NCBI RefSeq assembly: GCF_014837055.1
Contig: NZ_JACSPQ010000001.1
Span: forward strand, 547,035 to 611,034
From: Phocaeicola faecium
GTDB taxonomy: Bacteria; Bacteroidota; Bacteroidia; Bacteroidales; Bacteroidaceae
Length of the DNA: 64,000 nucleotides
Direction of reading: 5' to 3'
Shown: piece after piece, positions 1,812 to 8,374 of the stretch
Numbering within the stretch: position 1 is the stretch's first letter
Layout: every line of letters starts with the position of its first letter
Notes under the pieces: model-generated
What the model saw: only the letters and a program-made list of their open reading frames with translations
What the model was told of the DNA's origin: nothing
Database searches by the model: none
Program-made: the position numbers and the translations under genes

Positions 1812-3479
1812 ATGAAATCAGATATTGAGATAGCCCGCAGCATTGAGCTGACCAAGATTAAGCAAGTAGCACGCAATTATGATATTCCGGTGGAGGAGAT
1901 TTCCAATTACGGACGTTACATCGCCAAAGTACCGGAAACGCTGATTGACGAAGAAAAAGTGAAACAGAGCAACCTGATTCTTGTTACTGCCATTACACCG
2001 ACCAAAGCAGGTATAGGCAAAACAACTGTTTCCATCGGTCTGGCGTTAGGACTGAACAAGATAGGGAAGAAAGCTATTTGTGCGCTTCGTGAGCCTTCGC
2101 TCGGTCCTTGCTTCGGTATGAAGGGAGGAGCAGCCGGAGGTGGTTATGCCCAAGTATTGCCGATGGAGAAAATCAATCTGCACTTTACAGGCGATTTCCA
2201 TGCCATCACCTCGGCACACAACATGATTGCGGCGCTGCTCGATAATTATATGTATCAGAATCGCGATAACGGTTTTGCGCTGAAAGAGGTGCTTTGGAAC
2301 CGTGTTCTCGATGTAAACGACCGCGGTCTGCGCTACATTGTTACCGGATTGGGAGGAAAAAGTAACGGAATCACCCGCGAATCGAGTTTTGATATTACGC
2401 CGGCTTCTGAGATTATGGCAATCCTCTGTCTGGCTAAAGATGAAACGGATTTGCGTCGGCGCATCGAAAACATCTTGTTGGGCTTTACCGTGGATAACAA
2501 ACCCTTTACAGTGAAAGACTTAGGTGTAGCCGGCGCCATCACGGTATTGCTGAAAGATGCCTTGTCGCCTAACCTCGTACAAACCACCGAACACACGGCT
2601 GCTTTCGTTCACGGAGGTCCGTTTGCAAACATCGCTCACGGATGTAACTCTGTACTGGCTACCAAACTTGCCATGACTTTCGGCGATTATGCCATCACGG
2701 AAGCAGGATTCGGGGCAGACTTGGGGGCAGAAAAGTTTTATGACATTAAATGTCGGAAGGCGGGACTGCAACCCAAACTGACGGTTATCGTAGCTACCGC
2801 ACAGGGCTTGAAGATGCACGGCGGGGTAGACCTCGAACAAATTAAAGAGCCAAACATGGAGGGACTGAAAGAAGGAGTCAAGAATTTAGATAAGCACATT
2901 GAGAATCTTCGTTCGTTTGGTCAAACCGTTGTTGTGGCATTCAACCGTTACGCCAATGATACTGACGATGAAATCGATTTCGTTCGCCGTCATTGCGAAG
3001 AACAAGGTATCGGATTTGCCATCAATAACGCCTTTATGGAAGGAGGAGACGGCGCAATAGATTTAGCAAACTTGGTAGTGGAAACCATTGAAAAAAATCC
3101 GTCGCAACCGCTGACTTTCGCTTACGAAGAAACCGATTCGGTAGAAGAAAAGGTTACGAAGATTGCTTGTGGATTATATGGTGCTAAACAGGTATTGTTT
3201 GGCGCTGCTGCTCGTAAAAAGCTGAAGATGATAGAAGAATTAGGATACACCAATTTCCCGATCTGTATTGCTAAGACGCAATATTCTTTCTCTACCGACC
3301 CGAAATTATATGGCGTGGCTCAGGGTTTCAACTTTGCCGTGCGCGACATTGTAATCAATGCCGGTGCGGAAATGTTGGTTATCATAGCCGGAGAAATCAT
3401 GCGTATGCCGGGACTTCCCAAAGAGCCTCAGGCGTTGCATATTGATATCATCAACGGAGAAATAGAAGGCTTGTCATAA
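1812..3479 (+). CDS. fhs: Formate--tetrahydrofolate ligase
   Basis: This enzyme joins formate to tetrahydrofolate at the cost of ATP, giving 10-formyl-THF for the cytoplasmic one-carbon pool. The protein has 555 residues, the usual length for the family. The nucleotide-binding loop [11 protein letters not shown] is at residues 62-72. The conserved stretch [17 protein letters not shown] follows, then [14 protein letters not shown]. The ATG lies just downstream of a good Bacteroidetes promoter. The next gene, an HpaII-fold protein, begins 17 bases after the stop, so the two are probably cotranscribed. glyA, elsewhere in the window, also feeds one-carbon folate. Confidence 0.97.
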
Positions 3480-3496
3480 ATATTAAAAATAATACG

Positions 3497-4582
3497 ATGG
3501 CATTCGAAGCAACAAAAAGAGAATGGGGCGAACTGTATGCGTTTTTCCGTCTGTTGGCAGACGGGTACGTACATGCAGGTACGCCCGAAGCCGGAAAAGA
3601 TGAAACCTGCCGTTTCCCGGTCGCTATGATTCAGCGTGAAGAGCATGACGGAACACGGCGTTACATCATCGAAAAAGAATACATCCACATTCAGGGCGAT
3701 GAGATTGACAAACGGATTCCGCGCGAAGACTTTGCAACCGTTGCCGAGCTGATATTGAATGGCGTTCGCGATAGCAGGACGGATGATGTCACTTCGCCTG
3801 ACGGGGTAGAGGGCTTTCTGGATGAAGTGGCTATCTATGATTTGGAAGCAAAAACCGACGACCGGACAGATTTCAGTGTGGCATTTTATAGCGAGGATGC
3901 CCCGCTGACCGGAATGTGCGTGCGTTCCCGTTTGGGAACGATGTTCCCATTGCTGGACGGAGGACGCTCTGCCAACTTCAAGTTCGAGCAGACCGGAGTG
4001 CGGTTCGCCGTCCCCACCATCAATAAAATCAATGCCGAGGGCGAGGAAGACGATGTATTGAGACGCATGTTGATGATTGAGCGCTTGGGAGGAGTATTAA
4101 AGTATAGCGACGTGGCGGATAAGGTGTTCCGCAGCAATCTGTCGATGATTGATTTACACATGGGACGGTTGCTGGCAGAAATGACCCGCCTGATGTGGCT
4201 CGATGACATAACGAAGGTCTCAGATTTGACCGAGGCCATAAAATCGTTGAATCCCTTAAAGATAAAAGACGAACTGATAAACAAGCACGGCTTTTACGAA
4301 TATAAGATAAAGGAATTTCTGCTGGCTTTGGCAAACGGTATGCGTCCGGCTAAACTTTACAGAGGTACAGACAGCGCAATCGCCGGACTGCTTTTTGTTA
4401 CGGGAGACGGTGAAGTGCTTTGTTACCAACGGGCTTTCCGCCAGACATTCGCCGATTTCCTTTTCCAAAATACCCGCTTGGAGCGAGGCTCTACCGAGAA
4501 AGACAAGTATGGATATCTGGAGCGCGAGAACGGAACTTATTATTTCAAACTTAATCTGAAGGTAGGATTGCTGAAACGATAG
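3497..4582 (+). CDS. Orphan HpaII-family restriction endonuclease-like protein
   Basis: A 361-residue protein close in length to HpaII-family (RE_HpaII) endonucleases, which cut CCGG. From memory of the family, several blocks match in order: N-terminal REWGELYAFFRLLADG (8-23), a D125-containing block, GMCVRSRLG...LLDGGRSANF (139-161), and C-terminal NTRLERGSTEKDKYGYL with YYFKLNLKV. Family members as I recall them read GFSIKS where this one has GMCVRS, so a conserved lysine is apparently arginine (R143). No cytosine methyltransferase lies in the 64 kb, although CCGG sites are frequent. The gene sits between fhs and thiD with gaps of 17 and 12 bases, and its codon use looks like that of its neighbours. 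I infer a domesticated or non-cleaving DNA-binding role. Fold family is fairly sure; activity is unknown. Confidence 0.8.
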   Translation: MAFEATKREWGELYAFFRLLADGYVHAGTPEAGKDETCRFPVAMIQREEHDGTRRYIIEKEYIHIQGDEIDKRIPREDFATVAELILNGVRDSRTDDVTSPDGVEGFLDEVAIYDLEAKTDDRTDFSVAFYSEDAPLTGMCVRSRLGTMFPLLDGGRSANFKFEQTGVRFAVPTINKINAEGEEDDVLRRMLMIERLGGVLKYSDVADKVFRSNLSMIDLHMGRLLAEMTRLMWLDDITKVSDLTEAIKSLNPLKIKDELINKHGFYEYKIKEFLLALANGMRPAKLYRGTDSAIAGLLFVTGDGEVLCYQRAFRQTFADFLFQNTRLERGSTEKDKYGYLERENGTYYFKLNLKVGLLKR

Positions 4583-4594
4583 AGCAAAAACATC

Positions 4595-5428
4595 ATGACA
4601 ACATACCCTTGTATTTTAACCATAGCCGGTTCGGATTGCAGCGGAGGAGCCGGTATTCAGGCAGACATCAAAGCGATATCTGCATTAGGAGCATACGCAG
4701 CAAGTGCTATTACGGCAATTACCGTACAGAATACCTGTGGTGTAACAGGGATTCATCCTGTGCCGCCTGAATACGTTAAGGGACAGATAGAAGCCGTTAT
4801 GACCGATATCCGTCCGATGGCTGTGAAAATAGGCATGATTAACGATGCCGAAATTGTACACGTCATAGCAGATGCCCTCCGTAAGTTCTCTCCCCGTTTT
4901 GTGGTGCTCGACCCCGTCATGGTTTCAACCAGCGGCTGTAAGCTGATAGAAGATGCGGCTATCAACGCATTGACTACCGAACTGATGCCACTGGCTACGC
5001 TGATAACTCCCAATCTGAGTGAGGCAGAAGTTTTGACCGGCGGGCAAATAGAAGGGGTGGAAGGAATGAAAATCGCCGCCCGTAAGCTATTGGATTACGG
5101 CAGTTCCGCTGTTTTAGTAAAGGGCGGACATCTGGAGGAAGGAGAGATGTGCGATGTTCTTCAGATAAATAACGAATCCGCTCCCCACCTCTATACAATG
5201 AAAAAAATAGAGAGCCGGAATACACACGGAACCGGCTGTACACTCTCGTCTGCCGTTGCTACCTACTTGGCATTGGGCGAACCGATGACCGAAGCCGTGC
5301 GTAAGGCAAAAGAATACGTCTACCGCGGGATTTTGTCGGGAAGCAACGTTCACATCGGAGAAGGACACGGACCGCTAAATCATTTTCACGCTCCCGTGGC
5401 TATGCACATTTTCAATGAAAATGAGTAA
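4595..5428 (+). CDS. thiD: Hydroxymethylpyrimidine/phosphomethylpyrimidine kinase
   Basis: ThiD phosphorylates HMP and HMP-phosphate to give HMP diphosphate for thiamine synthesis in the cytoplasm. The 277-residue ribokinase-fold protein starts with the family hallmark LTIAGSDCSGGAGIQADIK and carries the HGTGCTLSSA loop with Cys215. Its length is normal. It starts 12 bases after the HpaII-fold gene, so fhs, that gene and thiD look like one operon. No other thiamine gene is nearby, and a salvage function is possible. Confidence 0.95.
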   Translation: MTTYPCILTIAGSDCSGGAGIQADIKAISALGAYAASAITAITVQNTCGVTGIHPVPPEYVKGQIEAVMTDIRPMAVKIGMINDAEIVHVIADALRKFSPRFVVLDPVMVSTSGCKLIEDAAINALTTELMPLATLITPNLSEAEVLTGGQIEGVEGMKIAARKLLDYGSSAVLVKGGHLEEGEMCDVLQINNESAPHLYTMKKIESRNTHGTGCTLSSAVATYLALGEPMTEAVRKAKEYVYRGILSGSNVHIGEGHGPLNHFHAPVAMHIFNENE

Positions 5429-6676: not shown

Positions 6677-8374
6677 ATGAACACCACTGAAAAAATAATT
6701 ATTTACCAAGTATTTACCCGATTATTCGGAAATACAAGCGTGTGCTGCCAGCAGAACGGAGACCTCCGGACAAACGGTTGCGGCAAAATGGATGACTTTA
6801 CGAAACAGGCTCTACACGCCATTAAGAAGATGGGTGCAACGCATATCTGGTACACAGGCATTATAGCTCACGCTACGCAAACCGACTATACGGCTTATGG
6901 AATCCCGAAAGACCATCCTGCCGTTGTAAAAGGGAAAGCAGGCTCACCGTATGCCATCAAAGATTATTATGATGTAGACCCCGACCTCGCAGTTCGTCCG
7001 GAGAAGCGCATGGAAGAATTTGCCGCACTGGTAGAGCGCACACACGAAAGCGGCTTGAAAATGATTATCGACTTCGTGCCCAATCACGTTGCCCGTCAAT
7101 ACCATTCGCTGGCAAAACCTGCCGGTACGAAAGACTTAGGAGAAAACGATGATAAGACACAGGCCTTCAGCCCGAACAACAACTTTTATTACATTCCCGG
7201 ACAGGCTTTGGGGGGCGACTTGAATCTGTATGATGCCGAAGCCGGGCGTTACGAAGAAATGCCGGCAAAGGCTACGGGAAATAACCGTTTTGATGCTACT
7301 CCTAACGTCAATGACTGGTATGAAACGGTAAAACTTAATTACGGAGTAGACTATATCGGCAATACCGGATGTCATTTCGACCCGATACCCGACACGTGGC
7401 ATAAGATGAAAGATATTCTGCTGTTCTGGGCAGCAAGGGGTATCGACGGATTCCGCTGCGACATGGCGGAAATGGTTCCCTGTGAGTTCTGGGGCTGGGC
7501 GATTCCGCAAGTAAAAGCCGTTTACCCTAATCTGATATTCATTGCCGAAGTGTATAATCCGAATGAGTATCGCAACTATATCTTTAACGGTCATTTTGAT
7601 TATCTTTACGACAAGGTGGGACTGTACGACGCCTTGCGTGCGGTAACTTGCGGATATGCTTCTGCCACGTCGATAACTTCCTGCTGGCAAAGTGTGAACG
7701 ATATTTGGAGTCACATGCTGAACTTCCTCGAAAACCATGACGAGCAACGTATTGCTTCCGATTTTTTTGCCGGAAATCCGTTCAAAGCAATTCCTGCAAT
7801 GATTGTTTCCGCATGTATGAACACCAATCCGATGATGATTTATTTCGGTCAGGAACTGGGCGAATCGGGCATGGACAGCGAAGGATTCAGCGGACGCGAC
7901 GGGCGGACTACCATTTTCGATTACTGGAGCATTGACAGCATCCACCGCTGGAACAACCACGGACGCTTTAACGATCATCTGTTGAACGATAAGGAAAAAG
8001 ATTTACATCATTTTTACACCCGGCTTCTTACGCTATGTAATTCTGAGCCTGCCATTGCAAAAGGAGAGTTTTTCGACCTGATGTATGTCAACCGGAATAC
8101 TTGGAAAATGGACGAGCATAAACAATATGCTTTCCTTCGCAAATATGGAAAAGAGGTATTATTAATCGTAGTTAATTTTTCAGAAATGCCGATGCACGTG
8201 TCTGTTAATTTGCCGCAACATGCCTTCGATTATTTGCAGATGCCTGCCCAAGCTACTTGTCAAGCGAAAGAACTGTTAAGTGGAAAAACAGAAACCATTT
8301 CTTTTTCTCCGGAACGTACTGTGAACTTGGATCTTCCGGCTTTGGGAGGAAAAATTCTGAAAATAACTTTTTAA
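6677..8374 (+). CDS. GH13 alpha-amylase family glycosidase
   Basis: A 565-residue protein with all four conserved GH13 regions: DFVPNH (132-137), GFRCDMAE with nucleophile Asp262, FIAEVYNP with acid/base Glu291, and LENHDEQR with Asp355. Family members hydrolyse or rearrange alpha-glucans. There is no signal peptide, so the enzyme probably acts in the cytoplasm on imported maltooligosaccharides or glycogen-derived chains. The C-terminal ~90 residues resemble the usual small beta domain. It is a single gene between a repeat and a bidirectional terminator, without susC/susD partners. The exact substrate cannot be read from the sequence. Confidence 0.93.
   Translation: MNTTEKIIIYQVFTRLFGNTSVCCQQNGDLRTNGCGKMDDFTKQALHAIKKMGATHIWYTGIIAHATQTDYTAYGIPKDHPAVVKGKAGSPYAIKDYYDVDPDLAVRPEKRMEEFAALVERTHESGLKMIIDFVPNHVARQYHSLAKPAGTKDLGENDDKTQAFSPNNNFYYIPGQALGGDLNLYDAEAGRYEEMPAKATGNNRFDATPNVNDWYETVKLNYGVDYIGNTGCHFDPIPDTWHKMKDILLFWAARGIDGFRCDMAEMVPCEFWGWAIPQVKAVYPNLIFIAEVYNPNEYRNYIFNGHFDYLYDKVGLYDALRAVTCGYASATSITSCWQSVNDIWSHMLNFLENHDEQRIASDFFAGNPFKAIPAMIVSACMNTNPMMIYFGQELGESGMDSEGFSGRDGRTTIFDYWSIDSIHRWNNHGRFNDHLLNDKEKDLHHFYTRLLTLCNSEPAIAKGEFFDLMYVNRNTWKMDEHKQYAFLRKYGKEVLLIVVNFSEMPMHVSVNLPQHAFDYLQMPAQATCQAKELLSGKTETISFSPERTVNLDLPALGGKILKITF

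Follow-up and report, generated by a model that had tools for sequence, protein, structure and literature searches.

The stretch of DNA analysed here (the window) comprises 64,000 nucleotides of a Phocaeicola faecium genome (contig NZ_JACSPQ010000001.1, positions 547,035 to 611,034) and contains a gene of the HpaII restriction endonuclease family without a companion methylase. Such genes are called solo below, and those with a C5-cytosine methylase alongside are called canonical. The gene and the codons that matter most are listed here, with counts taken over 135 distinct full-length family proteins (114 solo and 21 canonical, each 330 residues or longer).

3497..4582, plus strand: solo (methylase-less) HpaII-family gene, 361 residues; PF09561 match of 438.5 bits, AlphaFold2 model
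3521..3532, plus strand: codons 9 to 12, acidic E9 and E12 on the N-terminal helix, kept (E9 in 112 and E12 in 113 of 114 solos; both in 21 of 21 canonical proteins)
3869..3871, plus strand: codon 125 (D125), retained aspartate of the presumed catalytic site (112 of 114 solos, 21 of 21 canonical)
3917..3919, plus strand: codon 141 (C141), serine of the canonical S-x-K motif, lost (12 of 114 solos have S, as do all 21 canonical proteins)
3923..3925, plus strand: codon 143 (R143), presumed catalytic lysine position in canonical HpaII (solos R86, Y15, Q7, H2, F2, C1, L1; K in 21 of 21 canonical)
4559..4567, plus strand: codons 355 to 357 (K355, G357), canonical Q and R of the C-terminal end, both lost (Q355 in none of the 114 solos and in all 21 canonical proteins; residue 357 is G108, A4, S2 in solos and R20, K1 in canonical)

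The open reading frame (ORF) starts with ATG and has no internal stops. The Pfam profile RE_HpaII (E 2.9e-131; cut-off 25 bits) aligns over its positions 1-358 of 359 with residues 6-357, which bears out an earlier note, made from the sequence of the window, that the protein follows the family from end to end. The Pfam scan returned nothing else at E values up to 10, and NCBIfam gave zero matches. The AlphaFold2 model (mean pLDDT 92.3, pTM 0.90) predicts the PD-(D/E)XK restriction-endonuclease fold, and the predicted structural elements follow nearly the same order as in the HpaII family. A sequence search of solved structures found nothing for the window protein or the canonical alignment, and only chance-level rows for alignment A3. 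In re-ranked structure lists, in which a missing family may still be related, MspI and HinP1I are among the nearest structural relatives. Together with HhaI, these catalytically active enzymes differ in being smaller (241-262 residues) and share only 7-10% identity over aligned residues.

Comparison of solo and canonical proteins revealed a systematic loss of canonical residues. The counts take identical sequences once and omit ORFs shorter than 330 residues (L063, L067, L068, L070, L113/L115/L127, L131, L210, L211 and L233) as well as matches without a complete ORF (e.g. L037); ten canonical proteins added from other Bacteroidales families raise the distinct canonical set to 31. Residues 139-144 of the window protein read GMCVRS, placing arginine at 143, where the usual canonical form is GFSIKS, as the earlier note has it. 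Lysine occupies column 143 in 31 of 31 canonical proteins and in none of the 114 solos. As the solos vary between seven residues at this column, the conserved feature is the absence of the lysine rather than R143 itself, so that the loss noticed earlier stands for the whole group and the arginine does not. The 21 canonical proteins share 26 residues without exception, and 13 of these survive in only a minority of solos: N6, G8, D29, K123, S141, K143, G147, T151, N154, T159, W288, H311 and Q355, with G147 borderline (kept by 56 of 114) and H311 kept by 38. The other 13, E9, W10, E12, D125, S144, L152, N214, L215, D219, G281, C309, L322 and L352, persist in most solos. Since canonical proteins retain all 26 at pairwise identities down to 29%, the losses are not mere divergence; the identity between solo and canonical proteins is 18-36%. 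The solos also have constraints of their own: R54, R157, K162, P173, K257, D336 and K355 are nearly invariant in solos and occur in 0 of 21 canonical proteins, and 46 positions are invariant across 12 diverse solos and not so in canonical proteins. The window protein thus retains E9, E12, D125, N214, D219 and G281 of the HpaII family, and differs from members with an adjacent C5 methylase in lacking that methylase, K143 and the further canonical residues S141, T151, N154, T159, Q355 and R357.

The absence of a methylase extends beyond the neighbourhood. A C5-methylase ORF lies beside the HpaII gene for all 31 distinct canonical proteins, at spacings from overlapping to 13 bases, and on none of the 114 solo loci, for which the median shorter flank is 5.9 kb and five have less than 1 kb on one side. 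In one further copy, at L188 (G533), a solo and a canonical pair are 7.7 kb apart. The source genome (3,484,903 bases in 65 contigs, 99.99% complete) has a single HpaII match and no match to PF00145 (C5-cytosine methylase) in a profile search that matched 10 of 14 control genomes, nor any to the methylase family PF01555. The cognate CCGG methyltransferase of a Type II restriction-modification system is therefore lacking, within these two families, both next to the gene and genome-wide; the earlier note had claimed this for the window. Of 36 Phocaeicola genomes searched, 22 are of high quality, and seven of these (G000, G003, G004, G008, G011, G014 and G031) have no PF00145 match although all carry the HpaII gene, G011 being a single-contig genome; some C5 methylase is present in the remaining 15. 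As also claimed earlier, CCGG sites are common in the window, with 278 observed, seven of them inside the gene, against 309 expected from a Markov model and 151 from base composition. Pooled loci longer than 10 kb likewise show no avoidance (5,595 observed, 5,795 expected). Unlike CCGG, GGCC (40 observed, 171 expected) and GATC (38 observed, 256 expected) are strongly depleted over window positions 1-64000.

Type II restriction genes are usually seen as mobile, often short-lived passengers that are toxic without their methylase. The solo gene is distributed otherwise. Among Phocaeicola genomes at least 90% complete, a solo-type match occurs in 37 of 38 (one in two pieces), and the exception, G025, has a canonical HpaII system instead (L129). 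In Bacteroides the solo is present in 85 of 95 genomes, a few of the matches incomplete or in pieces, and absent from ten; in a third genus it occurs in five of six, the sixth having a canonical gene only. The gene is in pieces in G589, G629 and G641. The family as a whole is covered less evenly: a draw of 151 Bacteroidaceae genomes gave 66 with an HpaII match of any kind, 59 of them with a solo and seven canonical-only. A phylum-wide draw gave a match in 11 of 392 genomes, and the full-length matches examined outside Bacteroidaceae (G097, G241, G255, G304 and G371) are canonical with a methylase alongside. All solos form one clade (135-row tree, with 54 representatives bootstrapped). The ratio of nonsynonymous to synonymous substitution (dN/dS) has a median of 0.038 over 108 close pairs, many of which have dS above 1, and is 0.03-0.10 for the listed pairs with dS 0.36-0.51. 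A gene near-universal in its genus and confined to one clade does not show the sporadic, horizontally moving distribution of a restriction-modification system. The earlier note had set against its own reading a CCGG methyltransferase elsewhere in the genome with a shared sporadic distribution; within the two methylase families searched, the source genome has none.

Several loci also carry further HpaII-related elements. At L131 (G015), about 5 kb separate a solo (1217-2305) from a C-terminal canonical-like HpaII piece of 227 residues (7139-7822), with a short C5-methylase piece nearby. Two single-contig Bacteroides genomes have a second, C-terminal-only HpaII-like ORF of 208 and 236 residues (L210 2447-3073 and L211 2474-3184, both on the minus strand), with no C5-methylase ORF within the flanks examined. 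The methylases of canonical Phocaeicola HpaII systems at L129 (7799-9586, minus strand) and L188 (1163-2902, minus strand) bear an N-terminal Vsr mismatch-endonuclease domain.

Other Bacteroidales families have a second group with no methylase seen in its flanks. Among 393 Bacteroidales genomes searched, 26 gave a match, and 19 regions were examined: ten canonical, one fragment and eight loci of what we call the far group, from four genomes of one genus, three of another genus in a different family and one of a third family. PF09561 scores 238-295 bits on the three of these eight that were scanned. None of the eight has a C5-methylase ORF in flanks of up to ~2.4 kb, L235 having only 543 bases upstream. 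The far group joins the Bacteroidaceae solos against all canonical proteins (bootstrap 100/100; midpoint root). E12 and Q355 are absent from all eight, and K143 is present in five rows, column 143 being alignment-dependent for some. A lysine without a flanking methylase speaks against taking the lysine alone as the mark of a solo. The two sister groups thus seem to have given up cutting by way of different residues, and the loss of different acidic or lysine residues fits selection for something besides cutting.

Examination of the flanks revealed that RNase HII (rnhB) is the next downstream gene on the same strand in seven of the eight far-group loci (L231, L232, L234, L235, L236, L237 and L238), that is, in all seven from two of the families. 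It was identified by PF01351 in L231 (1833-2429, minus strand) and L235, and the other five are 70-89% identical to that of L231. The gap is 5-18 bases in L231, L232, L235 and L237, about 2 in L234, and either 14 or 41 in L236, according to which start codon is used. In L238 it is about 165 bases and contains a terminator-like hairpin, so joint transcription with rnhB is not universal. Between the two families, the HpaII-like proteins are 33-38% identical and the RNase HII proteins 66-75%, and no further ORF of at least 90 residues is common to both in flanks of up to ~2.4 kb. At the eighth locus, L239 of the third family, the gene immediately upstream is patatin-like, and the flanks contain no rnhB. 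No RNase HII gene was found beside the Bacteroidaceae solos in the flanks examined, or in the 64-kb window.

The immediate neighbours of the window gene are as follows.

1812..3479, plus strand: fhs, upstream neighbour across a 17-base gap; local, unconserved arrangement
4595..5428, plus strand: thiD, downstream neighbour across a 12-base gap; shared by few relatives

The gaps are those given by the earlier note, which placed the gene in a folate/thiamine operon and asked whether orthologues keep this neighbourhood. They do not: among 104 loci with flanks from below 1.5 to 8 kb, fhs occurs only at the source genome's own (L075), and thiD lies directly downstream only there and at L007, L009 and L088. 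The order is thus uninformative on function, and a folate/thiamine link was rejected. The usual Bacteroides order is YigZ, in some loci a C39 peptidase, the solo, a nitroreductase and then gcvP on the opposite strand; BthVORF1149P, whose gene order would fit, is presumably the orthologue of the window protein. Many Phocaeicola have alpha-amylase, fabD and thiD near the solo, and no constant neighbour was found across genera. The native codon use proposed earlier holds in part. On a reference made of thiD, fhs, fabD, amylase and glyA, the codon adaptation index of the gene (0.715) equals that of thiD (0.714) in all but the last digit, with fhs, fabD, amylase and glyA at 0.776-0.823; its GC content at third codon positions, 0.543 against 0.438-0.472 in these five genes, points slightly the other way.

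Upstream of some solos we found a 21-mer that belongs to the small RNA FopS (Rfam RF04319; described in PMC11697453). Of the 113 solo loci with sufficient upstream sequence, 31 have it within 400 bases, most often at a distance of about 170 from the start codon; none of the 21 canonical loci has it there. The Rfam scan confirmed FopS in L002 and eight of 11 further loci, and not in L041, L043 and L157; it runs divergently from the solo in L002 (7787-7854, minus strand) and in L001, L012, L028, L036, L156, L158, L161 and L170. The 21-mer falls inside the small RNA, and it was rejected as a dedicated operator. The source genome has nine copies at up to two mismatches, none of them upstream of the window gene. 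At L129 (G025), the 21-mer lies about 180 bases beyond the end of the canonical HpaII system. CCGG was rejected as an autoregulatory operator, occurring upstream of solos at 0.67 per 200 bp, unenriched against the 0.87 expected.

A sequence-specific transcription regulator, for example of FopS or of its own promoter, is an unlikely though conceivable role for the solo protein. FopS would recommend it, being confirmed as divergent at scanned loci that bear the 21-mer, which lies upstream of no canonical gene, but the 21-mer is absent from 82 of 113 solos, the window gene included. The strict Bacteroides promoter consensus occurs upstream of only ten of 114 solos, with looser -7-like boxes seen by eye in many Phocaeicola sequences, and no operator motif separable from FopS and the promoter was found. 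We consider it improbable that the protein remains an endonuclease with an unorthodox active site, either silent or acting on a special substrate such as damaged, modified or hybrid nucleic acid. The predicted fold is intact, E9, E12 and D125 are retained in 112-113 of 114 solos, and PMC4081073 describes some active enzymes with another residue in place of the lysine. However, the variability of column 143 is unlike that of a catalytic residue, most solos also lack S141, N154, T159 and Q355, E12 is missing from the whole far group, and a member is reported inactive in PMC3488263. The presence of canonical HpaII genes in the same genera (G025, G028, G533, G636, G662 and G502) would leave room for another role, in which a non-cutting copy would shield the host from an incoming HpaII-type system through site competition or dead complexes. 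Near-invariant canonical residues including Q355 and R357 are gone, which makes site competition unlikely. Moreover, there is no sign of protection or of mutual exclusion: the solo is absent from two of six carriers of a full canonical gene and ten of 133 non-carriers (Fisher p 0.08, not significant), with the two types told apart inferentially from their bit scores (494-543 for a full canonical gene, up to 285 for a solo) and G676, which has a partial canonical gene, entered as a non-carrier. Such immunity is accordingly rated a poor prospect.

That the gene is half of a separated restriction-modification system, with its methylase elsewhere in the genome, was proposed in 2012 for five of 11 Bacteroides members (PMC3488263), and the C5 methylases in 15 of 22 high-quality Phocaeicola genomes would allow it. 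We regard this as very improbable for the family, as the seven other genomes keep the gene without a C5 methylase match, and in the source genome it would require a CCGG methylase outside PF00145 and PF01555. A decaying remnant, a pseudogene in progress, is hardly credible: catalytic residues are lost, and the gene is broken in three genomes and missing from others, but a dN/dS of about 0.04, the 46 solo-invariant positions and the existence of 114 distinct solos with 330 residues or more all argue against decay.

The core idea of a solitary HpaII protein with a changed function is already in print. PMC3488263 describes, as group 37, 11 orthologous HpaII-like proteins in Bacteroides, six of them solitary and five with a probable separate methylase; citing REBASE, it gives BthVORF1149P as inactive and suggests a changed function. 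As HpaII-like Bacteroides proteins of which six lack a cognate methylase, group 37 is very probably the same family. To what that account says of the group, the present analysis adds the residue-level case, the distribution and selection, the clade, and the relatives, a sister group with E12 loss and RNase HII pairing. No later work on the solitary family was found among the matches listed in the open-licence literature; in what PMC13114119 says of HpaII, the enzyme is a reagent only.

Altogether, we propose that the window protein is a domesticated HpaII-fold protein, and it is very likely one that does not cut. With key cutting residues and the methylase gone, yet strong selection in close relatives, another job is probable. 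We infer that the solo protein no longer cleaves, and it probably no longer reads CCGG. The suggestion of the earlier note, that a restriction enzyme has become a vertically inherited protein with a different role, is thus well supported by the lack of a methylase of the two families searched, the residue losses, the single clade, the near-universal presence in the genus and purifying selection; DNA or nucleotide sensing, its example of such a role, would be a candidate. An ancestor within Bacteroidaceae would have recruited the gene from a restriction-modification system, or the capture may be older, given that other Bacteroidales families have the sister group. The fold would have been retained because its grip on duplex nucleic acid persists. 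The protein, single-copy in most carriers, would clamp double-stranded DNA or an RNA-DNA hybrid in the old DNA cleft without cutting, in the service of genome maintenance or gene regulation. We hold this explanation as a whole to be likely; on the retained activity itself our judgement is evenly balanced, although duplex binding is the most economical choice.

Nuclease folds have been reused for binding before, as in the inactive nuclease domain of RecC and in the B3 DNA-binding domains, which are akin to EcoRII and BfiI. Those are different families, whereas in this case the reuse seems to involve an entire stand-alone restriction enzyme. RNase HII offers the best lead to the function, rather than a demonstration of it. 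The pair with rnhB is the only order common to both far-group families in the flanks, and the structural relatives MspI and HinP1I accept RNA-DNA heteroduplexes, which they are reported to cut in PMC7337904. These facts suggest, as a tentative and rather unlikely option, a non-cutting clamp for RNA-DNA hybrids or ribonucleotide-bearing duplexes that partners RNase HII; Bacteroidaceae would encode this partner at another locus.

The solo gene therefore appears as a Type II restriction gene that was seemingly disarmed and then inherited by descent through two large gut-bacterial genera. In Pfam, PADLOC and public annotation it is still listed as a restriction enzyme; a genome that carries it should not on that account be credited with a restriction system or with CCGG methylation. 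As the two sister groups lost different candidate catalytic residues and conserved the fold, what was kept becomes a directly testable question, for which the pairing with rnhB provides a concrete first hypothesis.
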